Shown here piece by piece: positions 788-58,608 of a DNA stretch of 64,000 bases (the stretch's first letter is position 1; every line of letters starts with the position of its first letter). The stretch is from Halogeometricum limi. Lineage in GTDB: Archaea > Halobacteriota > Halobacteria > Halobacteriales > Haloferacaceae. The stretch spans positions 753,491 to 817,490 of the forward strand of contig NZ_FOYS01000001.1 of assembly GCF_900115785.1 (NCBI RefSeq), read 5' to 3'. The notes below the pieces were generated by a model. That model did no database searches, had not been told where the DNA came from, and saw nothing but the letters and a program-made list of their open reading frames with translations. A program made the position numbers and the translations under genes.

Positions 788-1081
788 TCACTCCGCGTCG
801 TCGGAGGCGATGCATTCGAGCAATGGCCGGATCTCGTCGAACTGCGGCCCTTTGACGATTTGACCTGTCTCTTCGTTCCACTCGATGTAGCCGTGGTCTT
901 CGAGTTTTGGCAAGTGGATGTGAAACATTTCGATCTGCTCTCGTTGCTCGGCGTCGGTCAGCACTGAGTGTCCTGTAGGGGATTCAAACCCTGCGTCCTG
1001 CGGGTTCGATTCGAGGAGGGCGAGCAAGAGCGTACGGCGCTGTTCGTGCGCGAGTGCCTCGAAGTCGAGATCTGCATTCAT
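788..1081 (-). CDS. DUF7344-like winged-helix protein
   Basis: A 97-residue protein beginning MNADLDFEALAHEQRRTLLLALL, the typical first helices of the haloarchaeal winged-helix family in which a stretch like HEQRRTLLLAL opens an ArsR-like fold. The recognition part (EMFHIHLPKLEDHGYIEW) and wing (NEETGQIVKGPQF) follow. It is probably a DNA-binding regulator. I chose ATG 1081 over an upstream TTG (1108) because the family starts here. It sits between the HTH_10 regulator upstream and HalOD1 downstream. Its promoter region contains a 21-bp perfect direct repeat that may be its own operator. The regulated genes are unknown. Confidence 0.75.
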   Translation of the reverse strand: MNADLDFEALAHEQRRTLLLALLESNPQDAGFESPTGHSVLTDAEQREQIEMFHIHLPKLEDHGYIEWNEETGQIVKGPQFDEIRPLLECIASDDAE

Positions 1082-1116
1082 TATAATCACACAAGGTACT
1101 AGGGGCAATCAGGCTG

Positions 1117-1166
1117 CCTTTTTCGTACACAAACCGTACTTACTCCCTTTTTCGTACACAAACCGT
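1117..1166 (-). promoter_or_regulatory. Tandem 21-bp direct repeat, putative operator/promoter
   Basis: Positions 1117-1137 and 1146-1166 are identical over 21 nt (core TTTTTCGTACACAAACCG), 29 nt apart start to start. On the minus strand the repeats precede the DUF7344-like gene, and the proximal one contains an A-rich TACGAAAAAGG stretch that can act as the TATA region 36 nt before the ATG. Duplicated identical sites upstream of a small HTH gene suggest operator sites, possibly autoregulatory. That role is inference; the duplication itself is seen directly. Confidence 0.6.
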
Positions 1167-1176
1167 TTTTACCTAC

Positions 1177-1836
1177 TCACTCGGGGTTGACTGTAAGGCC
1201 CGAGAGCGCGTCCCCGAGGACTGCCTTGATCCCTCCACGGAGGCGGGAGCCGACGGCCTGCTGTGAGATGCCGAGTTCCTCGCCGAGGGCTTCCAACGTG
1301 ACCTCGCGGGGAGACTCGAAGTACCCCCGGTCGTAGGCAAGCACCAGCGCCTCTAGCTGGGTGTCAGTGAGGATGACTTCGATCGCCGTCTCAACCGGGG
1401 TGAGTGCGGTTAGTGACGTCAGCGTGATCGGGATATCCAGCTCTCGACAGCGCCGTTGAAATTCTACGATGTCACGTTGCTCATCACCGCGGACATCGAA
1501 CGTCCACTGTTTGTTTGTACCGATAGCCTCGATCAGTGGAATCGATGTCTCTGCCAGTACGGTTAGCACGTCATCGTACTCCAGCGTCCATTCGACGCGT
1601 AACAGGTACTCGTCCTCGACAGAGTCGACGAGCCGGATCCCCTGCACGCCGGGGTGTTCAGTGAACGCACTCTCGATGTCAGCGACTTCGGTTCCCCGCA
1701 CCCAGAAGTAGGGAATCACGACGTCCTGGGCGGGGACGAGTCGCTCCAGCTCGACCGTCACGTTCGGCAGTTGGTTGAACACTGTCCCCAGCGGGAACTG
1801 GTCTGACGGAACCGTGAACGTCGCTTCAGTAACCAT
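1177..1836 (-). CDS. HTH_10 (bat-type) transcriptional regulator
   Basis: A 219-residue protein. Residues 1-150 form the haloarchaeal bacterio-opsin-activator-like sensor region (ELERLVPAQDVVIPYFWVRG, then GDEQRDIVEFQRRC). Residues 160-215 are the HTH_10 domain: LTDTQLEALVLAYDRGYFES, an EVTLEALGEELGIS helix-turn-helix and a QQAVGSRLRGGI recognition helix. The ATG at 1836 is supported by a TATA-like TCTTTACA about 27 nt upstream, consistent with a leaderless mRNA. It heads a same-strand group with the DUF7344-like and HalOD1 genes. A paralogous regulator next to HalOD1 is at 30131-30820. Such regulators act as DNA-binding activators; the target is unknown. Confidence 0.85.
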   Translation of the reverse strand: MVTEATFTVPSDQFPLGTVFNQLPNVTVELERLVPAQDVVIPYFWVRGTEVADIESAFTEHPGVQGIRLVDSVEDEYLLRVEWTLEYDDVLTVLAETSIPLIEAIGTNKQWTFDVRGDEQRDIVEFQRRCRELDIPITLTSLTALTPVETAIEVILTDTQLEALVLAYDRGYFESPREVTLEALGEELGISQQAVGSRLRGGIKAVLGDALSGLTVNPE

Positions 1837-1859
1837 TGTCTGTCCCATGGGCTTCCAGC

Positions 1860-1867
1860 TGTAAAGA
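1860..1867 (-). promoter_or_regulatory. TATA box of the HTH_10 regulator
   Basis: The minus strand reads TCTTTACA, centred about 27 nt before the ATG at 1836, the usual distance from TATA to start in leaderless haloarchaeal genes. The IS5 element ends about 140 nt further upstream, so this promoter appears intact. Confidence 0.5.
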
Positions 1868-2003
1868 CCTGCTACTGATTGGCACGCGTTTTCGCCCACC
1901 GTTCGCGGACGCATCATCTCTCGGCCCCGTATTCGGTACATGGTCCACCCCGGCCCAACCAGTGGGTTCACCGATACGGGATCCGACGTCGGTACCAGCA
2001 CCC

Positions 2004-2937
2004 GTTCTATTCAGCAGTCCGCTCCTCTCAGAATCACAGACGCTCGTACTCGTCGCGTGAAATTGCGAGGGCGCGTTCCACGTTGTGAACAACGCATTTG
2101 ATGACGAGCTCACGGAACTGCTTCCACCAGCGTCGTGAACGGACGAAGGCACCGTACTTGCGTTTGAGCCGAGAGTTCACCGTCTCATTCTGACTACGCT
2201 GCCCGTAGAGAGTGGCGTCGATCCGAGCGTTCCACGCCTTGTGGAGCGACGAAAACGTGCGGTGCTTAATGAGCGGACGAACATCCTGCTCGTGGGCAAG
2301 CGTTCGAATCTTCTGGTCGTCGTACCCTTTATCTCCGAGGAGAACAACTACTTCGTCGGTATTTCGCTTGATGAGGGACGGTGCGATTTGCGAGTCGTGT
2401 TTCCGTGTCGTCGTCACGTGTACGTCGATAATCGCGTTCGCTCTCGTGTCTACGAGAACCGTGACTTTCAACTGCTGAATCGTCAATTTCGTTCGCTTCG
2501 TGTAGTGTTTTGAGGCATGACTGCGGTCGAACCCGGAGGCGTCGATCCCGACGATACCGTTGGTCGGGAGAAGCGTAACGGAGAGGTTGAGGAGAACCCG
2601 CCAGACAGCCATATTGAGCCGGTTGAACGCTTTACACAACGTCGAAGGAGAGGGGAGTTCTTCAAGATCGATGGCACGTCGAATCCGAGGCATCTCGATG
2701 AGTTCGTCGAGAAGCATCCGATACGTCGTGTTCTTCCGGACTTTGAGGCAGAGTAAAACGATGTGTTGGTGGAGTGTGTACCGTCGTTTCGAGAACTTCG
2801 AAGAGTATCGAGCGGTTGCTCGACGAGCAAAGTGATACGCCTGCTCAACGAACCGGAGCAACCGAGACTTCGGGAGGGCCTGCATTCGGTCAAACTACTG
2901 CTCGGTCCTGTAACTCTCTGAGGATTTCAACAGAGCC
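2004..2937 (-). mobile_element. IS5-family insertion sequence
   Basis: An element of about 930 bp, the usual size for haloarchaeal IS5-type elements, containing one full-length transposase. The right end, read inward from 2937, is GGCTCTGTTGAAATCC. The proposed left end near 2004 (GTTCTATTCAGCAGTCC) matches it only loosely, so the terminal repeats are imperfect and the left boundary is approximate. No convincing target-site duplication is visible. The much better match to the right end at 96-114 leaves open that the element extends further left. Confidence 0.65.
2034..2885 (-). CDS. IS5-family transposase
   Basis: A full-length 283-residue DDE transposase. Near the N-terminus is the family segment SKFSKRRYTLHQHIVLLCLK. 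The DDE triad is visible in VGIDASGFD, LLGDKGYD and ETVNSRLKRKYG, followed by FVRSRRWWKQFRELVIK at the C-terminus. The ATG at 2885 (MQALPKSRLL) is 52 nt inside the right end of the element. No frameshift or stop interrupts it, so the enzyme is probably functional. The codons are less G/C-biased than in the surrounding chromosome, as expected of a mobile gene. Confidence 0.92.
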   Translation of the reverse strand: MQALPKSRLLRFVEQAYHFARRATARYSSKFSKRRYTLHQHIVLLCLKVRKNTTYRMLLDELIEMPRIRRAIDLEELPSPSTLCKAFNRLNMAVWRVLLNLSVTLLPTNGIVGIDASGFDRSHASKHYTKRTKLTIQQLKVTVLVDTRANAIIDVHVTTTRKHDSQIAPSLIKRNTDEVVVLLGDKGYDDQKIRTLAHEQDVRPLIKHRTFSSLHKAWNARIDATLYGQRSQNETVNSRLKRKYGAFVRSRRWWKQFRELVIKCVVHNVERALAISRDEYERL

Positions 2938-3111
2938 AAGAATTTCGTACTGCGGTTCTTCTACTTCGCATTCGCCTGTCTGCTGTACTCGATTTGGAGA
3001 GCCGTTGACCTCCTCGTTCAGATCGAGTTGACCGGGAAATACGTTCGGTCACCGATAGTGACGGCGAATACGGTTCTCATGTTGTTGAATAAGCAGACGG
3101 GCATAGGATAA
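2938..3111 (+). pseudogene. C-terminal fragment of a second transposase
   Basis: Starting one base outside the right end of the IS5 element, a plus-strand frame encodes about 57 residues to a TAA at 3109-3111: KNFVLRFFYFAFACLLYSIW, then AVDLLVQIELTGKY, a PIVTANTVL segment and LLNKQTGIG. This resembles the C-terminus of haloarchaeal IS4/ISH8-like transposases by recollection of the family. There is no start codon and nothing of the N-terminal part remains next to it, so it is a truncated relic; the IS5 copy may have inserted into it before flanking DNA was lost. Confidence 0.55.
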
Positions 3112-3377
3112 TCATCTGTCCGCGATAAGCGACCGCCCGGTGGTGAGCGGCGGCGCTATGTCGACGACCGCTACTCCGCACGAGTAGTTAGAATCCCGAA
3201 GTGATTCTTCGGTTGAATCTGAGATCGAAGCGTCTCTCCTTCCCTGCTTCACCCAAAACCACGCACCAGAGCCGCTCTCTCCCCTCCGTGGTCTCAACTC
3301 CTCCATCGGTCGGAGAGACGGCTTCCGTGGACCTGAGGGTTCGGATGCCGGCCGTCGACTCCGCCCGGTGACCCGAC

Positions 3378-5051
3378 TCACGCCCCGTCTCTCGGCACCC
3401 GAACCGTCGCCGTCGCCCCCTCCCCGAACAGCAACTCGCAGCCGAGAATCTCCGCGCCCCAGCGGACCATCCAGAGGTCGAGACTGCTGGCGTGGTTCAG
3501 CGCCGTCTCAGACTCGGCGGTCACCGCGTCGACTTCGTGGCTCGGAAGCGGCGTCGCCGTGTGGAACTGGAGGCCGTACGCGTCGTCGGTCACGTCGAGT
3601 CGCACGTCGACGTCGCAGTCGGTGTACTCCGCCAGCGCCAACAGGAGGCGGGCGGCCATCGTCGAGAGGAGGTCGGGGTCCGTGCGAGCCACCGCGTCCT
3701 CGTCCACCTCGACGGTCACGGTTCGGTCCACGTCCGCGTCGGCGACGGCGGCGTCGACGACGCGCCGGAGCGAGACAGCGTCTCGGGTCACGTCGGTGCG
3801 GTCGACGACGCGGTCTATGGTGCGCGCGTCTTCGGCGAGTTCGAGGAGGCCGCTCGCGTAGCGTTCGGCGGTCGCGAGTCGGTCGTCCCGTTGCGTCCGC
3901 GCGTGCTGTCCGCCGTCGGCCGAGACGCTCGTCTCCGAGCGGGCGAGTTCGAGGTTGCCGACGACGACGTTGAGGTCGTTTCTGATGTTGTGCCGGAGGA
4001 CGCGGTTGAGCACGTCCAGTCGTTGCTCGCGGCGACGCTGGGCCGTGATGTCCTGAAAGACGACGCTGTGAGCGACGACGGTTCCGCTCGGGTCGGTGTG
4101 CTCGGAGGGGGTGATGGCCAGGTACTGCAGCGAACCGTCGACCCGCGTCGAGATGGTCTGGTCGGTCGCGTCGAGGTCGACGGCTGTGCCGACGAGTTCG
4201 TCGAGGTCCCTCTTCAGCGCGGCCGACTCGGCGACGCCGAAGACGGCCGTCGCGGCGGCGTTGAGGTTGATGACTCGGCGGTCGCGGTTGACGACGACGA
4301 CCGGCGATTCGAGGTGGTCGAGTTGCGTGTTGTCGACGACGCGCCGGGTGGTCGGGTTGAACTCGAACATGTCCGTCCCGAGGACGGCGTAGCCGTCGAC
4401 GAGGATGTGGGGGATAAATGCGAGGGGGACGAGGTTCAGTTGCGGGTACGGCCCGAGGCTGAGGAGCCAGGCGACTTCGGCGATGCCGGGCGGAATCGTA
4501 CTGAGGGCGATAGCGATGGCCTCGACGCGGTACAGCGAGTAGCTCACGGCGGTGTCGACGAGGACGAGCGCGCCCGTCGCGGCGATGAAGATACCGAGGA
4601 CGACGAGTGCGACGCCGACGGGAACCGGGGTGTACACGACCGTCGAGAGACCGGCCGTCGGCACGACGCGGAACGCGGGCCAGATGAGGTGGTGGTACGG
4701 ATTCGTCAGCATGAGACCGCCCGTCACCACGGGGAACAGGAAGACGACGTGAAACGTGCGCGTGTCCACGAGATGCTCGCGGCCGCTGTAGGAGAGCGTG
4801 AACGCGAGGAAGGAGACGACCTGTATCGCGAGCGCCGTCCAGACAGTCGTCTCCAACAGCAGACGAGTCGGGGGGTCCGAGACGAGGTAGCCGACGCCCG
4901 TCGTCGCGCAGAACACCGCTTGGCTCGACAGCGTGACCGCGAGCCACGTCGCGCCGGGTTTCTCGCGGTAGGCGAGAAGCACCGTCGCCAGGAACGCAGA
5001 CCCCAACGCCGCGACGGCGGCGGCGACGACGGGCCAGAGCGCCGGGCTCAT
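3378..5051 (-). CDS. 7TM-PAS histidine kinase with decayed ATPase domain
   Basis: A 557-residue protein. Residues 1-220 contain about seven hydrophobic helices (histidine-kinase N-terminal 7TM region). A PAS domain follows at about 235-345 (SPVVVVNRDRRVINLNAAAT), then a HisKA helix with the phospho-acceptor motif RVLRHNIRNDLNVVVGN. The C-terminal region should be HATPase_c, but the N-box is replaced by AARLLLALAEYTDC and the usual DxGxG box by HTATPLPSHE, so ATP binding is doubtful. ATG 5051 fits the first helix; an upstream in-frame TTG (5159) is unlikely. The signal and partner regulator are unknown. It is divergent from the halolysin gene. Confidence 0.8.
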   Translation of the reverse strand: MSPALWPVVAAAVAALGSAFLATVLLAYREKPGATWLAVTLSSQAVFCATTGVGYLVSDPPTRLLLETTVWTALAIQVVSFLAFTLSYSGREHLVDTRTFHVVFLFPVVTGGLMLTNPYHHLIWPAFRVVPTAGLSTVVYTPVPVGVALVVLGIFIAATGALVLVDTAVSYSLYRVEAIAIALSTIPPGIAEVAWLLSLGPYPQLNLVPLAFIPHILVDGYAVLGTDMFEFNPTTRRVVDNTQLDHLESPVVVVNRDRRVINLNAAATAVFGVAESAALKRDLDELVGTAVDLDATDQTISTRVDGSLQYLAITPSEHTDPSGTVVAHSVVFQDITAQRRREQRLDVLNRVLRHNIRNDLNVVVGNLELARSETSVSADGGQHARTQRDDRLATAERYASGLLELAEDARTIDRVVDRTDVTRDAVSLRRVVDAAVADADVDRTVTVEVDEDAVARTDPDLLSTMAARLLLALAEYTDCDVDVRLDVTDDAYGLQFHTATPLPSHEVDAVTAESETALNHASSLDLWMVRWGAEILGCELLFGEGATATVRVPRDGA

Positions 5052-5385
5052 CGCCCCCTCTCCGGGCGGCCGTCGTCCCCGACGCGACCCGTCACCGTCG
5101 CGGCCGACGCCGGACGGACGCCGAGCGTGACACCTCGTCGGGACCCATACATCGAACAACTGTTAGTTATCGTGACGAACAATAAATCGTACTGATGCGG
5201 GAGCGAGGGCGACCCGACGAGAGCGAGAGCGGACGAGGCGAGCGTACGGGGACTCTCGTGTGTTCTCACTGCCTCCGGGAGAGCGAACCGACACGGACGG
5301 AACGTGTCGACTTCCGTGAAACCAGCTGACAGTTTCAACCCGTTTGAAAAATCATTAATAATCTCGCTTCGGACAGCGGGACGTT
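5052..5385. other. Divergent intergenic region, kinase / subtilase
   Basis: 334 nt between the two start codons with no ORF of its own. The halolysin side has a clear TATA element. On the kinase side an AT-rich patch around 5176-5190 (GAACAATAAATCG on the plus strand) could serve as a minus-strand TATA, giving a leader of roughly 100 nt. Nothing else stands out. Confidence 0.5.
5353..5360 (+). promoter_or_regulatory. TATA box of the subtilase gene
   Basis: CATTAATA lies about 29 nt upstream of the ATG at 5386, in an A/T-rich island (TTTGAAAAATCATTAATAAT) within GC-rich surroundings. The spacing predicts a start of transcription at or just before the start codon. Confidence 0.6.
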
Positions 5386-6861
5386 ATGTCTCCACTTAGC
5401 AGACGAACGTTCTTGAAAGGTGCCGCGAGCAGTGCAGTCGCGCTCACCGCGATGGGTACGGCCAGCGCCGCCGACGGCCGAGACCAGTTCGTCGTCACGT
5501 CCTCCGGAAAGGGTGTCCTGAAGCGACTCGAACGCGAGGGGTTCGAGGTAGTGAGTTCCGTCGCCGACGACTCCGTCCACCTCGTCGTCGCCGACTCGGC
5601 GTCCGCGCTCTCGAAGGTGAAGGGAGTGAACTCCGTCGACCCGAACGCGGGCTATCGGCTCTCCGGCCCGGCACGCGAGGCGTCGAGTACCGAGGAGTCG
5701 ACGAACGACGACGACGCGGACATCCAGTGGGACAAGATGGACGACACGACGGGCGCGTTCCGGGCGCACGACACCGCGACCGGAAAGGGTCGGTCCGTCG
5801 CCGTCATCGACACCGGTATCGCGACGAACCACCCTGACCTCGACACCGCGACGGGGCGCGGCAAACTGTTCCGCGCGGACGGCGTGTTCGGCAGTCCCGT
5901 CGTCGACGGCGACCGGACCGTCGCGGCGCGGTACCCGAACGGACCGGAGATTGCTTCGTACACGTATCTCGGTGCTCCGGCGACGAAGGACCAAGCGGCC
6001 GCCGACGACGTGCAGTCGCACGGGAGTCACTGCGCCGGCATCGCGACGGCGAAGAACGAGGAGAAGGTCGGCATCGCCGGGATGGCGCCCGACGCGGAGG
6101 CGATTCCGCTCCGCGTGTTCTACTGGAAACAGCTAGACGGCTACCCGTACGACGAGGACGGCGACGGCACCGAGGAAGAGGTGACCGTCACCGTCCTCTA
6201 CACGACGGACTTCGACATCCTGAGCGCCATCGACTACGCGGCCGACGTCGGTGCAGACGCGGCGAACATGAGCCTCGGCGGCGGCGTCATCAAGGGTTCG
6301 GAGCACAGTTCCGGGGAACACGTGGCCTACCAGCGCGTGGTTCAGAGCGCCGTCCAGCGCGGCACCGTCGTCACCGCCAGCGCGGGCAACGCCTCCTCGA
6401 ACCTCCAGCAGGGCGGGTACTACACGCTCCCGAACAGCGTTCCGGGGGCGATGAGCGTCTCCGCGACGGCGCCGAACAACAAGCTGGCGTTCTACTCGAA
6501 CTACGGCACCAGCGACATCGACGTGGGCGCGCCCGGCGGTGCGTACGAGACGTTAGAAAAGACGCTCGCGACGGACACGGCGTGGCCGTTCCCGCTGAAC
6601 CTCGTCTACTCGACGGTTCCGAGAGACCTGAGCGGCGGCACCGGCTACGGGTTCAAAGCCGGCACGTCGATGGCCGCCCCGCAGGTGGCCGGACTGGTCG
6701 CACTCGTCCGCGAAGTCGCGCCCGGCCTGAACGCGAAACAGGTGCAGAACGTCATCGAACGGACGGCGCGGTTCAGTAACGGCAACAGCGACGCCGACAT
6801 CGGCGCCGGTGTCATCTACGCGCCGGACGCACTCGCCGAGGCGCAGAAGTTCGCGAAGTAA
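5386..6861 (+). CDS. Tat-exported subtilisin-like serine protease (halolysin type)
   Basis: A 491-residue S8 protease. It starts with a twin-arginine signal (SRRTFLKGAASSAVALTAMG, cleavage near ASA-AD). Residues 35-100 resemble an I9-type propeptide, and the S8 catalytic domain follows. The triad is visible: Asp142 (VAVIDTGIATNHPDL), His212 (SHGSHCAGIA) and Ser428 (GTSMAAPQVAGL), with oxyanion Asn335 (SAGNASS). Unlike longer halolysins it ends about 35 residues after the catalytic core, with no PPC-type C-terminal extension. It is secreted folded through Tat and degrades proteins in brine. It is monocistronic with its own TATA box and a hairpin plus T-run after the stop. Confidence 0.93.
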   Translation: MSPLSRRTFLKGAASSAVALTAMGTASAADGRDQFVVTSSGKGVLKRLEREGFEVVSSVADDSVHLVVADSASALSKVKGVNSVDPNAGYRLSGPAREASSTEESTNDDDADIQWDKMDDTTGAFRAHDTATGKGRSVAVIDTGIATNHPDLDTATGRGKLFRADGVFGSPVVDGDRTVAARYPNGPEIASYTYLGAPATKDQAAADDVQSHGSHCAGIATAKNEEKVGIAGMAPDAEAIPLRVFYWKQLDGYPYDEDGDGTEEEVTVTVLYTTDFDILSAIDYAADVGADAANMSLGGGVIKGSEHSSGEHVAYQRVVQSAVQRGTVVTASAGNASSNLQQGGYYTLPNSVPGAMSVSATAPNNKLAFYSNYGTSDIDVGAPGGAYETLEKTLATDTAWPFPLNLVYSTVPRDLSGGTGYGFKAGTSMAAPQVAGLVALVREVAPGLNAKQVQNVIERTARFSNGNSDADIGAGVIYAPDALAEAQKFAK

Positions 6862-54438: not shown

Positions 54439-55164
54439 TTACTCGGCTTCGGAGCGCTCTCGCATCGCGTCGCGCGCGCCTTCGACCGTCTCGCGGACCG
54501 CGTCGACACCCTCGTCGTGCAGGAGGTCACCGACCACGACGACGTCGGAGTACTGGCCCATCTCGTACGCCGCGTCGTAGTCGCTGACGCCGCCGCCGTA
54601 GAACAGCGTCGACTCGTCCAGCGCGTCGTGTGCGGCCTTCACCTTCTCGGTGTCGCCGAACATGCCGGAGTACTCGACGTAGATTATCTCCTGGCCGAAC
54701 ATGCGCTCGGCGACGGCGGCGTAGGAGGCGACGTCGTCCACCGCGAGGTCACAGTTGGCGTCGGTCAGTTGCGCGACGGAGGCGTCGGGATTGAGGACGA
54801 TGTACGCCTCGGTGTGCGTGCGGTCCCAGTCCATCCCGTTCTCGATGCGGACCCACTCTTTGTGGGCGCCGGTGATCCAGAAGGCGTCTTTCGCGTTGAA
54901 CACCGTCGGGATGAGGTAGCCGTCCAGCGCGTCGTCGTCGACGACGACGCCGGGGTTCGACGGTTCTTGGTAGAGGGGGACGTCGTGTTCGGCGCAGGCG
55001 TCGACGACCCGTTGCATCTTGTCCGCGGTGATGTCCAGCGTGCCGCCGATTTCGATGGCGTCCGTGCCGGTCTGACAGACGTCCTCGAACGTCTCTCCGT
55101 CCACGAGGTCCTTGTCTGGGTCCACTTTGAGTACGTGGTTCCACTCGGTCCAGGGCCCGGTCAT
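54439..55164 (-). CDS. Geranylgeranylglyceryl phosphate synthase (GGGPS)
   Basis: A 241-residue TIM-barrel prenyltransferase. Characteristic motifs: [40 protein letters not shown], the YVEYSG motif in [20 protein letters not shown], and the phosphate loop [20 protein letters not shown] with [12 protein letters not shown]. It makes the first ether link of archaeal membrane lipids from sn-glycerol-1-phosphate and GGPP. It has its own TATA box (TTTTTAAC) 28 nt upstream. Confidence 0.95.
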
Positions 55165-55187
55165 TGGACGTACTACCAGTTGGCACC

Positions 55188-55195
55188 GTTAAAAA
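55188..55195 (-). promoter_or_regulatory. TATA box of GGGPS
   Basis: The minus strand reads TTTTTAAC, centred 27 nt before the ATG at 55164, identical to the aspS TATA. Confidence 0.6.
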
Positions 55196-55229
55196 TGGCG
55201 CGGATGGGGTCTCTGCGTAGCCCGAAGAC

Positions 55230-55367
55230 GTGCGCGAGGGTCTGACGAACGACGTCGAAACCGTCGAACGCGCCGAAGAACTGGAGGAGAAAATCGAACG
55301 AACCGACGAACTGTACGGCCTGACCAACGGAGTGAGAAAAATCGTTGAGGAGTCGGTAAATTCATAG
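55230..55367 (+). CDS. Short coiled-coil ORF, possibly a gene fragment
   Basis: After a TAG at 55218-55220 the frame is open. From GTG 55230 it encodes 45 residues: VREGLTNDVETVERAEELEE, then KIERTDELYGLTNGVRKIVE and ESVNS, stop TAG 55365-55367. It is a charged amphipathic helix with normal codon use, typical of the C-terminal coil of a larger protein rather than a free-standing gene. Its upstream part is missing, so it may be the truncated end of a gene lost when the following AT-rich gene arrived. Confidence 0.4.
   Translation: MREGLTNDVETVERAEELEEKIERTDELYGLTNGVRKIVEESVNS
55357..55364 (+). promoter_or_regulatory. TATA box of the PD-(D/E)XK gene
   Basis: TAAATTCA, centred about 31 nt before the ATG at 55391, overlapping the end of the short coiled-coil ORF. 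Confidence 0.5.
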
Positions 55368-55390: not shown

Positions 55391-56104
55391 ATGGATGTTC
55401 ACGATTCGAACAACATAATCGCTGAGCGAGTTCGACTCTGCCTCACCTCATTCCCTGCGAAATTTCGGGACGTAAACGAGAGTGGAGAACTTCAGAACGT
55501 ACTTACGACAACTAGAAATCTAAGTGGTCCGCGTGTTCAACAGAGCCCTGAAGATTTCACAGAACAATATCTGATCGAGCCAGTACTCCACGGACTCGGT
55601 TTCTTCAATCCCACGAGCGAGAAGTATGATGGACAAAAACCGCACTTCGTTCGTCGACCCACCACGTTCTCGAAGATTGAGCCGAAGCAACCTGATTATC
55701 TTCTGAAGAACGTCTCTGACCGACTCATCTGTATTCTCGAAGCAAAAGCAGCCAACAGAGAGCAGTTGTCCGGAAGCAAAAGGGAGGCGACGAGTGATAT
55801 CGAGGGGTACCTCGAATCAGACACCTTCTGCAAGTATCTGCTGGAACGGGAGAGCCGCTATCTCGTTGGTCTCGGAACCGACGGTTTGCGGTGGACACTC
55901 TGGTGGAAAAATCTCTCTACCGGAGAAGTCTTTCGAGAATGCCCCACGGTCGACTTATCTCCTCTCATCAAATCATTAGCCAGAACAGATTCAGTGATTG
56001 CAGGCGAACCGACTCACTCTAATCCCGAAATACGGAAATTACTCAGAGAAGAGTTCGTGCCGTATTTCGCAGCGGAAAATCTACCGGAACATGTCGCCGA
56101 TTAA
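55391..56104 (+). CDS. Solitary PD-(D/E)XK nuclease-like protein (restriction-enzyme N-terminal type)
   Basis: A 237-residue protein, clearly AT-richer than its neighbours. It has FTEQYLIEPVLHGLGF (a helix seen at the start of type I/IIG restriction subunits), then KQPDYLLKN and RLICILEAKAANREQLSG, which give a PD-x(n)-ExK active site. The later part (YLESDTFCKYLLERESRYLV, GLGTDGLRWTLWW) also resembles nuclease domains of R subunits. There is no helicase, methylase or specificity domain and no such gene nearby. It is either a decayed restriction gene or a stand-alone defence nuclease. Its stop overlaps the convergent topA stop. Confidence 0.6.
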   Translation: MDVHDSNNIIAERVRLCLTSFPAKFRDVNESGELQNVLTTTRNLSGPRVQQSPEDFTEQYLIEPVLHGLGFFNPTSEKYDGQKPHFVRRPTTFSKIEPKQPDYLLKNVSDRLICILEAKAANREQLSGSKREATSDIEGYLESDTFCKYLLERESRYLVGLGTDGLRWTLWWKNLSTGEVFRECPTVDLSPLIKSLARTDSVIAGEPTHSNPEIRKLLREEFVPYFAAENLPEHVAD

Positions 56105-58608
56105 TCTGCTGCGGATTGCCACTTCCGCACCGTATCCGGCCCCACTCCGTCCATCAGGTCGGCCAGCGCGTCGGGTTCGGCCTCTTTCAGCGAGGGCACG
56201 TCGTCGATGCCGGCGTCTTTCAGTTTCTCGGCCGTCTTCGCGCCGATGCCCTTCACGCTCTGCAGTTCGTCGCCGTCGACCTGTTCGGCCTGGTACTCAC
56301 GGTAGTTGCAGATGGGACAGCCGAGTTCCCACGGTTCTCTGTCGCTGTCCTCGTAGGTGATGCGAATCTCCGGCAGGTCGTGTTCCTCGCACTCCTCGTC
56401 GGTCACTTCGATGTCGCCCCGGCGCGGGAGGGGAAGCGAGTAGTCGCAGTCGGGGTAGCGGGTACAGCCGACGAGTCTGGACCCGGAACGCAGACGTTTG
56501 ATGGCCAACTCGCCGCCGTGTTCCTCGCCGCAGTCCGGACAGGTCCCGATGACCAAATCCTCCTCCTCGTCGGCCTCCTCGGCCTTACAGAGCGGACAGC
56601 CGTGGACGAACGTCTTCCGCCCGGCCAGCATCTTCACGTGGCTGAGGCCGTGTTCCTCGCACTCCTCCTCTAAGATGAGCGGTTTGCCCGTCGAGGGAAG
56701 CGGGAGGGTGTACGTGCAGTCGGGGTAGCCGTCACAGCCGATGAAGTACGACCCGCGTCGACTCTTTCTGATCACCAGGTCGTGGTCCGATTCCGGACAG
56801 GAACCGACCGTCTTGTCGGCCTTCAGCGACTTCTGGAGGTGTTTGCCCACCTCGTCGCCGGACTCCATCAGCCCCTCGAACACGTCTTCGAGAATCTCTC
56901 TGGACTCTTCTGTCACGTCGTCGAGGGTGGCCTCGCCGCGGGCGATGGCCTGCATGTCCGCCTCCAACTGCGCCGTCATCTCCTCGGACACGATGAGTTC
57001 GGCGAACTCCTCGGAGGCTTCGACGACGGCGCGGGCGAGGCGCGTCGGGCGCGGCGGGTCGCTCTCGATGTAGTTGCGGTCGTACAGTTTCTGGATGACG
57101 TCGTGGCGCGTCGCCTTCGTTCCGATGCCCATCTGCTCCATCGTCTCGATGAGGCGCGACTGGCCGTAGCGACGGGGCGGTTGGGTCTGTTTGGCGTCGA
57201 TGCTCGTCTCCGTGACGACGAGTTCCTCGCCCTCGTCCACGTCGGGGACGAACGACTCCGAGGAGTTGAAGTACGGATACACGTCGTGGTAGCCCGCTTT
57301 CACGAGACGTTTGCCGTTCGCCTTCAGCGACAGGCCGTTCGCGTCGGCGACGACGCGCAGGTGCTCCCACTCGGCGGACTCCGCGACGGTGGCGAAGAAC
57401 CGTCGGACGACGAGTTCGTACACCTCCCACTCGTCTTCCGTCAGGTCAGCGCGCGAGGGGAGTTCGCCCGTCGGGTGGATGGGCGGGTGGTCGGTCGTCT
57501 CGTTGTCGCCGGCGGTGGGCTCTATCTCCTCCTGTTCGAGGAGATGCTCGGCGTCCTCGCCGAACGTCCGGTTGGCGGTGAACTCGCCGAGGAGTTCGCG
57601 GGGGTCTAAGTCCTCCGGGTAGACGGTGTTGTCCGTCCGCGGGTAGGTGATGTAGCCCGCCGTGTAGAGGTCTTCTGCCATGCTCATCGCCCGTTGCGCG
57701 GAGTAGCCGATGGAACTGACCGCGCGGATGAACTGGGTGGTGTTGAACGGGGCCGGCGGGTCGTCCGTCCGGGTGCGACGGCGGACGGAGTCGACCGTCG
57801 CCGTCTCCGCCTCGCGGAGCGTCTCGTACGCCGTCTCCGCGTCGTCGCCGTCCCAGACGCGTTCGGCCTCGTTGCCGTCCTCGTCGAGGTAGAAGTACTG
57901 CGCCTCGAACGACTCCGAATCCTTCTCTAGGTCGGCGAACAGTTCCCAGTAGTCCTCGGGGTCGAACGCGTCAATCTCGCGTTCGCGGTCGACGATGAGT
58001 TTCAGCGTCGGCCCCTGCACCCGGCCGACCGAGATGAAGTCGTCACCGAGTTGTCTGGCAGAGAGCGAGAGGAACCGCGTCAGCGCCGCCCCCCACACGA
58101 GGTCGATTATCTGTCTGGCCTCGCCCGCGGCGGCGAGGTCGAAGTCGAGTTCGTCGGGGTTCTCGAACGCCTCCGTCACTTCGCGCTGGGTGATAGAGGA
58201 GAAGCGAACCCGGTCGACGGGGACGTCCTCGTTCACCTCGCGGACGAGTTCGTACGCCTCCTTGCCGATGAGTTCGCCCTCGCGGTCGTAGTCCGTCGCG
58301 ATGACGACGCGGCGGGCGCGGCGGGCGAGTCGTCGCAGTGCGGCGACGATGTTCTCCTGCGTCGGGTGTTTGGCGACGGGCGCGTCGATGAGTTCGACCG
58401 GTTCGACGTCGCGCCAGTCGTTGTACTCCGGCGGGAAGTCGACGCCGACGACGTGACCGGACAGCCCGATGCAGCGTTTTCCACCCCACTTGTAGACGTT
58501 GACACCGTTGACACGCTCGGCCTCCGCGGACTCGCCGCTCAAGATGTCCGCGATACGCCGAGCGGCGTTGTCCTTCTCCGTGATGATGAGTTCCGGGCCG
58601 TTGCTCAT
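56101..58608 (-). CDS. topA: DNA topoisomerase I (type IA, archaeal)
   Basis: An 835-residue enzyme. The Toprim domain has the acidic triad in VVIATDYDREGELIGKEA (D106, D108, E110), and catalytic Tyr322 is in AGYITYPRTDNTVYPED. The core ends near 570, followed by three or four zinc-ribbon repeats (GCDGYPDCTYTLPLPSTGK, GCTRYPDCDYSLPLPRRGD, GCPLCKAEEAD, GCPICNYREYQ) and a C-terminal HhH domain (LQSVKGIGAKTAEKLKDAGI). It relaxes negatively supercoiled DNA. It has a TATA-like GTTTAGGC 28 nt upstream. Confidence 0.96.
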   Translation of the reverse strand: MSNGPELIITEKDNAARRIADILSGESAEAERVNGVNVYKWGGKRCIGLSGHVVGVDFPPEYNDWRDVEPVELIDAPVAKHPTQENIVAALRRLARRARRVVIATDYDREGELIGKEAYELVREVNEDVPVDRVRFSSITQREVTEAFENPDELDFDLAAAGEARQIIDLVWGAALTRFLSLSARQLGDDFISVGRVQGPTLKLIVDREREIDAFDPEDYWELFADLEKDSESFEAQYFYLDEDGNEAERVWDGDDAETAYETLREAETATVDSVRRRTRTDDPPAPFNTTQFIRAVSSIGYSAQRAMSMAEDLYTAGYITYPRTDNTVYPEDLDPRELLGEFTANRTFGEDAEHLLEQEEIEPTAGDNETTDHPPIHPTGELPSRADLTEDEWEVYELVVRRFFATVAESAEWEHLRVVADANGLSLKANGKRLVKAGYHDVYPYFNSSESFVPDVDEGEELVVTETSIDAKQTQPPRRYGQSRLIETMEQMGIGTKATRHDVIQKLYDRNYIESDPPRPTRLARAVVEASEEFAELIVSEEMTAQLEADMQAIARGEATLDDVTEESREILEDVFEGLMESGDEVGKHLQKSLKADKTVGSCPESDHDLVIRKSRRGSYFIGCDGYPDCTYTLPLPSTGKPLILEEECEEHGLSHVKMLAGRKTFVHGCPLCKAEEADEEEDLVIGTCPDCGEEHGGELAIKRLRSGSRLVGCTRYPDCDYSLPLPRRGDIEVTDEECEEHDLPEIRITYEDSDREPWELGCPICNYREYQAEQVDGDELQSVKGIGAKTAEKLKDAGIDDVPSLKEAEPDALADLMDGVGPDTVRKWQSAAD

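Follow-up and report, generated by a model that had tools for sequence, protein, structure and literature searches.

The gap between a PcrB-family gene and topA in Halogeometricum limi holds a gene for a predicted PD-(D/E)XK nuclease, which stands there with no intact partner adjoining it. We consider it likely that this gene is a solitary restriction-modification (RM) nuclease left from a two-gene operon, and that it has been kept, is not toxic alone and probably acts as a defence effector. The DNA analyzed, referred to here as the window, is a stretch of 64,000 nucleotides from contig NZ_FOYS01000001.1, and the features of the locus are listed in Table 1. The left flanking gene belongs to the PcrB family (PF01884), which we take to be geranylgeranylglyceryl phosphate synthase.

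Table 1 Features of the nuclease locus, with positions in the window.
Feature	Position	Strand	Remarks
PcrB-family gene, left flank	54439..55164	-	Pfam PF01884
Left junction, promoter side of the PcrB-family gene	55165..55220		Alignable with relatives to about 55209
3' stub of a type IIG-like Eco57I/TaqI_C RM gene	55221..55367	+	48 codons (55221-55364) plus TAG
PD-(D/E)XK nuclease gene	55391..56104	+	237 aa, ATG start; predicted catalytic residues E63, D102, E117, K119
Overlap of nuclease and topA stop codons	56101..56104		4 bp, TTAA; TTAG in the Haloferax profundi equivalent
DNA topoisomerase I gene topA, right flank	56101..58608	-	

The reading frame of the nuclease gene, first proposed in a reading of the sequence alone (the sequence-only reading), is real, and so is the deviant composition described there: its GC3 is 0.511, against 0.869 in topA and 0.909 in the upstream gene. 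Over its full length the gene has a GC content of 0.494 (49.4%) in a window of 0.667 (66.7%), and 0.16% of the 711-bp segments, taken in 50-bp steps across the whole window, are as GC-poor. The sole other dip below 0.53 starts at about 2.3 kb and covers a DDE transposase gene on the minus strand (2034-2885). The same reading had described a junction with no intergenic space, in which both proteins end in Asp within the palindrome GATTAATC. The 4-bp overlap exists: the nuclease gene ends in GAT TAA, topA ends in GAT TAA on the opposite strand, and the TTAA is common to both. The palindrome was rejected as a functional junction: where same-genus relatives have an empty site, topA ends as usual, in ...WQSAAD or ...WQTSAD, and in H. 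profundi the overlap reads TTAG. The H. profundi homolog is 66% identical, occupies the same gap and likewise overlaps topA by 4 bp. Because the topA ends of relatives are unchanged without the insert and the H. profundi nuclease ends in Ala, the Asp at both protein ends is a coincidence. The stop-codon overlap is a real property of the junction, whereas the palindrome and the Asp at each protein end are incidental.

Upstream of the nuclease gene, 48 codons remain of a type IIG-like enzyme gene, the last of them 26 bp ahead of the nuclease start codon. This stub is 60-66% identical to the tails of intact enzymes; in tblastn it matches residues 1351-1403 of the 1405-aa enzyme of a genome of the same family (G011) with 66% identity (E 9e-10), and it is 55% identical to a Halobaculum TaqI_C protein (E 2e-11). 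The earlier statement that the window contains no methylase, helicase or specificity partner therefore fails for this 3' methylase/specificity stub; no intact partner is seen adjoining the nuclease gene. Among the 29 columns that are invariant in seven enzyme tails, a set that excludes the H. profundi row, the stub keeps 17, has lost 8 through in-frame deletion and has changed 4. In alignment, the inserts of G011 and of the same-genus genome G003 start roughly where that of the window does. We rejected the stub as a small gene or antitoxin, since it does not begin with a start codon, matches no Pfam or PADLOC model and is clearly homologous to enzyme tails; its NCBIfam match is to a nucleotidase model only and is weak (E 0.04). 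A sigma-70 promoter scan, with a model ill-suited to archaea, returned no promoter-like site. A missing helicase partner downstream was likewise rejected, the next gene being topA.

Complete operons of enzyme and nuclease occur in Halopenitus malekzadehii (L039), with an enzyme of 1395 aa, or 1385 from a later Met, and in Natronomonas aquatica (L040), with an enzyme of 1385 aa. In both, the stop codon of the enzyme gene falls within the start of the nuclease gene. The operon enzyme consists of an Eco57I methylase domain and a TaqI_C specificity domain, accompanied by sub-threshold N-terminal matches to MmeI_N/HSDR_N, and in PADLOC it matches DrmMI and type IIG best. Within the PcrB-topA gap, an intact enzyme without the nuclease is found in G003 (1366 aa), in G011 and in G023 (1377 aa), the latter two being of the same family as H. 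limi. The gaps of the same-genus genomes G002 and G004 measure 281 bp and 323 bp and that of G001 has an unrelated ORF; the nuclease gene is absent from all four same-genus genomes, G001-G004. The gap of G086, from another family of the same order, combines the nuclease with a 30-residue 5' fragment of the enzyme and another ORF, and that of G006 holds enzyme tails only. Comparison of these contents thus reveals the RM system or its remains at this site in at least seven genomes (window, H. profundi (G412), G086, G003, G011, G023 and G006). The comparison covers 22 loci, namely 20 of the 60 searched genomes, picked mostly for gaps above 500 bp, plus H. profundi and G086, and is a non-random set.

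Taken together, the stub, the enzymes in the same gap and the two operons identify the nuclease as the former second gene in an RM operon that has lost its enzyme. The gene has what a solitary RM endonuclease is expected to have, an adjacent methylase remnant and intact orthologous operons elsewhere (L039 and L040). The proposal that it represents a one-gene nuclease is accurate for its present state, in which it stands alone, but not for its origin, and acquisition as a free-standing single gene is ruled out by the stub and the intact operons. We postulate that the operon of enzyme and nuclease was the ancestral state.

The interval between the PcrB-family gene and topA varies widely in its own right. 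Where both genes lie close together on one contig (L093-L112), it spans from about 40 bp to 12.7 kb, its cargo differs by genus, and to judge from these contents it looks like a recurrent integration site. In G003 (L095, oriented coordinates 885-5880), the 1366-aa enzyme is followed by a VapB/VapC-type pair on the opposite strand and then by a second C-terminal enzyme tail, which suggests that this gap holds another, decayed copy of the enzyme.

The PDYLL...LEAK motif that led to the first assignment as a nuclease is present and comprises PD101-102 and E117-A-K119, with E63 placed on a predicted helix preceding the PD motif. E63, P101, D102, E117 and K119 are invariant in all 21 intact close copies, that of the window included, and these conserved PD...(D/E)xK residues are those of the PD-(D/E)XK superfamily. 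Structure prediction with inspection of the active site had been proposed as a check, and it recovers the core order of elements, but not a confident active site or a strong structural match. The model (11 sequences; pLDDT 70.9, pTM 0.76) follows the helix, two strands, helix, two strands order of the restriction-enzyme core; most of residues 85-132, the active site included, have a pLDDT below 50. In the structural comparison all Z-scores stay below 8, with a mitoribosomal protein on top (Z 7.9). The restriction-type matches, to DrdV (Z 6.6, 134 residues, 4.0 A), BpuSI (Z 5.4) and 3ijm (Z 5.0), are only suggestive for a predicted model. Foldseek found no match for the model in the PDB at E<=1e-3.

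Sequence models recognize the protein poorly. No model in Pfam, NCBIfam, PADLOC or PHROGs matches the nuclease at E<=1; across nine family members the best restriction-related match is HSDR_N, found in three of the nine (E 0.055). The search of solved structures by sequence gave no result, the best restriction match of a profile search had an E-value of 0.17, and no nuclease homolog was found in phage records or in viral contigs, the latter searched twice. Profile comparison with hhalign is more informative, linking the nuclease domain to the N-terminus of a type IIG-like enzyme of Thermococcus barophilus (E 4.6e-10), to the N-terminal 170 residues of a gene linked to BREX-5 (E 3.3e-11) and, with a weaker match, to the domain at the N-terminus of its own partner enzyme (E 4.6e-6). 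The earlier suspicion of a relationship to the N-termini of restriction enzymes is thus borne out at the profile level. From these three homologies we conclude that one nuclease module accompanies adenine-methylase systems, either fused to them or as a separate gene. The window protein itself, at 237 aa and with no methylase or specificity domain found, does not combine in one chain the three domains of a type IIG enzyme. In two haloarchaeal BREX-5 clusters, a gene with a nuclease-homologous N-terminus lies right after pglZ (L019, 5965-7242, 425 aa; L021, from 5965); by its sequence and position, this gene is possibly a nuclease component of BREX-5.

Loss of the enzyme is not confined to the window. 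The 21 intact close copies of the nuclease reduce to 16 after clustering at 90%, and their neighborhoods, which the sequence-only reading had recommended searching for stand-alone homologs, do include solitary copies, some of them on plasmids near defence genes; not all copies are solitary, however, as 2 of the 21 adjoin a complete enzyme. Beside one further copy (L034) the C-terminal 843 residues of the enzyme remain, and seven (window, L033, L036, L025, L027, L078 and L080) have only 5' and/or 3' enzyme fragments, of 30 to about 320 residues, whose near end lies within 160 bp. Two copies show a weak tail match only (L032, L024), and two have an enzyme or stub within 6 kb that does not adjoin (L015, L035); the remaining seven show no clear enzyme trace. 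The upstream DNA compared was 6 kb, except for L034 with 3.5 kb. The tail match of H. profundi is weak (E 3.0), and the call for this copy rests on position and DNA alignment. On a tree in which several deep forks are unresolved, copies with fragments are spread over about five separate branches, so the association is probably old and the loss repeated. In three loci (L025, L080, L084), large internal deletions leave a 5' piece of the enzyme beside a 3' piece, and the nuclease follows downstream, in L084 as a broken copy.

Of 392 genomes in the order, at least 32 have a member of the nuclease family, distant and broken copies included, and at least 141 have the enzyme (E<=1e-100); both counts are lower bounds, with up to seven (nuclease) and two (enzyme) first-look candidates scored per genome. 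It follows that the enzyme mostly occurs without the nuclease. A related enzyme or long remnant at E<=1e-100 occurs in 7 of the 17 genomes with an intact close copy; it was not seen in the other 10, H. limi among them, where the best two candidates per genome were scored and the absences are accordingly not firm. Five further nuclease copies are broken or fragmentary, hence the nuclease is not always kept.

Selection and conservation were assessed on sets without broken copies and without copies below about 45% identity. Five Halorubrum copies that lack an adjoining intact enzyme give, in their 10 pairs, dN/dS values of 0.05-0.12 at dS of 0.15-0.45, and by this substitution measure they show purifying selection. 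Methylases are found near several of them: an unrelated type IIG gene of 1059 aa lies 3.5-6.7 kb upstream of L037, sequences that match the enzyme at 24-25% occur within 5 kb of L075 and L076, and the enzyme near L035 is inverted and divided between two ORFs. The selection in Halorubrum may therefore reflect a partner, and part of the signal may predate the loss of the enzyme. Between the window and H. profundi, dN/dS is 0.12, with dS saturated at 2.6.

How a nuclease could outlive its methylase can be outlined as follows. The protein would hydrolyze DNA through a Mg2+-dependent PD-(D/E)XK site, a function predicted from its conserved residues, and in the intact operon it would serve as an accessory endonuclease subunit steered by the specificity/methylase part of the enzyme. 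Once orphaned, it would leave the unmethylated chromosome uncut, and its sparing of the chromosome would make the loss of the methylase survivable; that it is harmless in this respect is indicated by the strain living without that methylase. We propose that the orphan is retained for some anti-virus benefit, gained either alone or when docked on other methylase-based defence proteins, for example the organism's own BREX PglX. The nuclease gene is often intact after its partner is lost, and it may thus have a use of its own. A broader generalization, somewhat short of probable, is that the accessory nuclease of type IIG-like RM operons has repeatedly been freed by deletion of the enzyme and then kept by selection as a non-toxic defence effector in its own right, either autonomous or drawing on another methylase-based system such as BREX.

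Two ways in which a retained nuclease might work fall under this reading. The first, which we hold tentatively and would not call likely, is that the nuclease acts in trans, as the endonuclease subunit of a split system whose partner is encoded elsewhere, such as the BREX PglX, a 1163-aa DrmMI-like protein or an 815-aa methylase. Candidates are available, since the H. limi genome encodes three Eco57I-family proteins, one of them inside a BREX cluster with BrxC and PglZ. The homologous domain is a separate gene beside pglZ in the two BREX-5 loci, and some homologs of the nuclease have other type IIG, Shedu or helicase/DUF262 genes in their vicinity. Against action in trans, an enzyme of the L039 type (E<=1e-100) was not found in the H. 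limi genome (G000), with 2 of 12 candidates scored, and the genome holds no second nuclease homolog beyond a 34-residue match at chance level. The gene itself adjoins no pgl/brx or drm genes, as a component of a BREX or DISARM locus would; its flanks are the PcrB-family gene and topA. A BREX-like cluster of PglX, BrxC and PglZ is located on another H. limi contig (L119, G000:C3:412000-424000).

The second way, in our view equally doubtful, is autonomous one-gene defence, in which the nuclease alone would sense a feature of invading DNA other than the methylation mark of the lost enzyme, such as replication intermediates or viral base modifications. It is consistent with the 10 of 17 genomes in which no related enzyme was seen among the best two candidates, with purifying selection in copies without an adjoining intact enzyme, and with the location of some such copies on plasmids near defence genes. 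However, the 237 residues include no evident DNA-recognition domain, and other methylases are often present. In the intact operons the nuclease moreover coexists with the methylase, so it should not target that mark; a type IV (methyl-directed) nuclease acting against its partner's own mark was rejected for the same reason.

A rival to retention for function is that the gene is an inert relic, a silent or neutral leftover of the RM operon whose decay is yet to come. The adjoining enzyme gene has decayed, five nuclease copies elsewhere are broken or fragmentary, the short gaps of G002 and G004 and the absence of the nuclease gene from G001-G004 fit such a history, and solitary restriction endonucleases (REases) may be unexpressed, according to the passages of PMC3488263 that deal with them. 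The sequence-only reading had named as its refutation homologs always fused to or followed by methylase/helicase domains, which would make this copy, lacking them, a decayed restriction gene. That is nearly the case, in that it is the leftover of an RM operon, but the nuclease shows no visible decay. All 21 copies retain the catalytic residues, and the Halorubrum orphans are under purifying selection (dN/dS 0.05-0.12). Within the locus, the window nuclease departs at 2 of the 49 columns that do not vary among the 15 other non-redundant rows (for those rows the figure is 0 to 6), whereas the stub has lost or changed 12 of its 29; the Fisher test of this difference (p 6e-5) is only a guide, because the invariant columns come from 7 (stub) and 15 (nuclease) sequences. 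Furthermore, the window and H. profundi copies are about equally distant from third copies, with identities of 0.58 and 0.56 to L033 and of 0.59 and 0.60 to L079, respectively. An inert relic is therefore an unlikely, though coherent, account.

An addiction role, which the sequence-only reading had suggested, would under the general theory of selfish RM systems make the nuclease a toxin and the enzyme its antidote; we regard it as very improbable here, given that seven copies, that of the window among them, combine an intact nuclease with a fragmentary enzyme, so that the nuclease is not a toxin held by that methylase alone, and that no linked intact antidote gene accompanies it, the methylase gene being a stub only and the cell alive.

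The locus resembles several described systems. In the parts of Ershova et al. 2012 (PMC3488263) that concern them, 74 full-length solitary REase genes lie beside truncated methylase genes, with intact orthologous systems elsewhere, and the window nuclease shares this arrangement. It differs from the cases presented there in belonging to a family that is unmatched in Pfam, NCBIfam, PADLOC and PHROGs, whereas those REases are annotated in REBASE, in having a type IIG-like partner enzyme with a nuclease-like domain of its own, and in that orphaning recurs within one family, with evidence of selection. HVO_A0006 of Haloferax volcanii is, according to sections of PMC4389544 and PMC5867850, an N-terminal fragment (219 aa) of a fusion enzyme, with transposition genes on either side; its deletion together with two other genes left 6mA methylation unchanged in the follow-up. 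By the description in those sections and by motif, HVO_A0006 and the window nuclease are both solitary, small haloarchaeal PD-(D/E)XK proteins related to type IIG N-termini, with the spacing PD-x14-EAK, but the former is a fusion-enzyme fragment and the latter a separate downstream operon gene. With the type IIG enzymes DrdV and BpuSI the nuclease shares the motif and a weakly similar predicted fold, and with that of T. barophilus the profile homology; unlike all of these, it stands alone, with no methylase or specificity domain in its chain. The 425-aa BREX-5-linked gene after pglZ (OE_RS13010 in Halobacterium salinarum) is similar in its N-terminal 170 residues and in being a separate gene beside a methylase-based defence system; it differs in its extra C-terminal half (sub-threshold DUF7814 match) and its position among BREX-5 genes.

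As reported in the relevant passages of PMC4176335, the trend is that solitary REases rarely arise by degradation of RM systems. The present family looks like a repeated case of exactly this origin and, if our reading is true, would be one in which solitary REases do arise by RM degradation, contrary to the trend given there. Nucleases beside methylase pseudogenes are already known, and recurrent orphaning within one family is less usual; in the open-licence literature we found no description of the two-gene operon or of its orphaning. As a whole, the family adds a group of nucleases that four common protein-family and defence libraries do not recognize. An ordinary RM system that lost its methylase but retained its nuclease should kill the cell; this family seems to have taken that course repeatedly, with the nuclease conserved. 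Its intact operons, its copies with partial enzymes and its orphans are natural experiments on whether a solitary nuclease no longer works, serves another system or defends the cell unaided.
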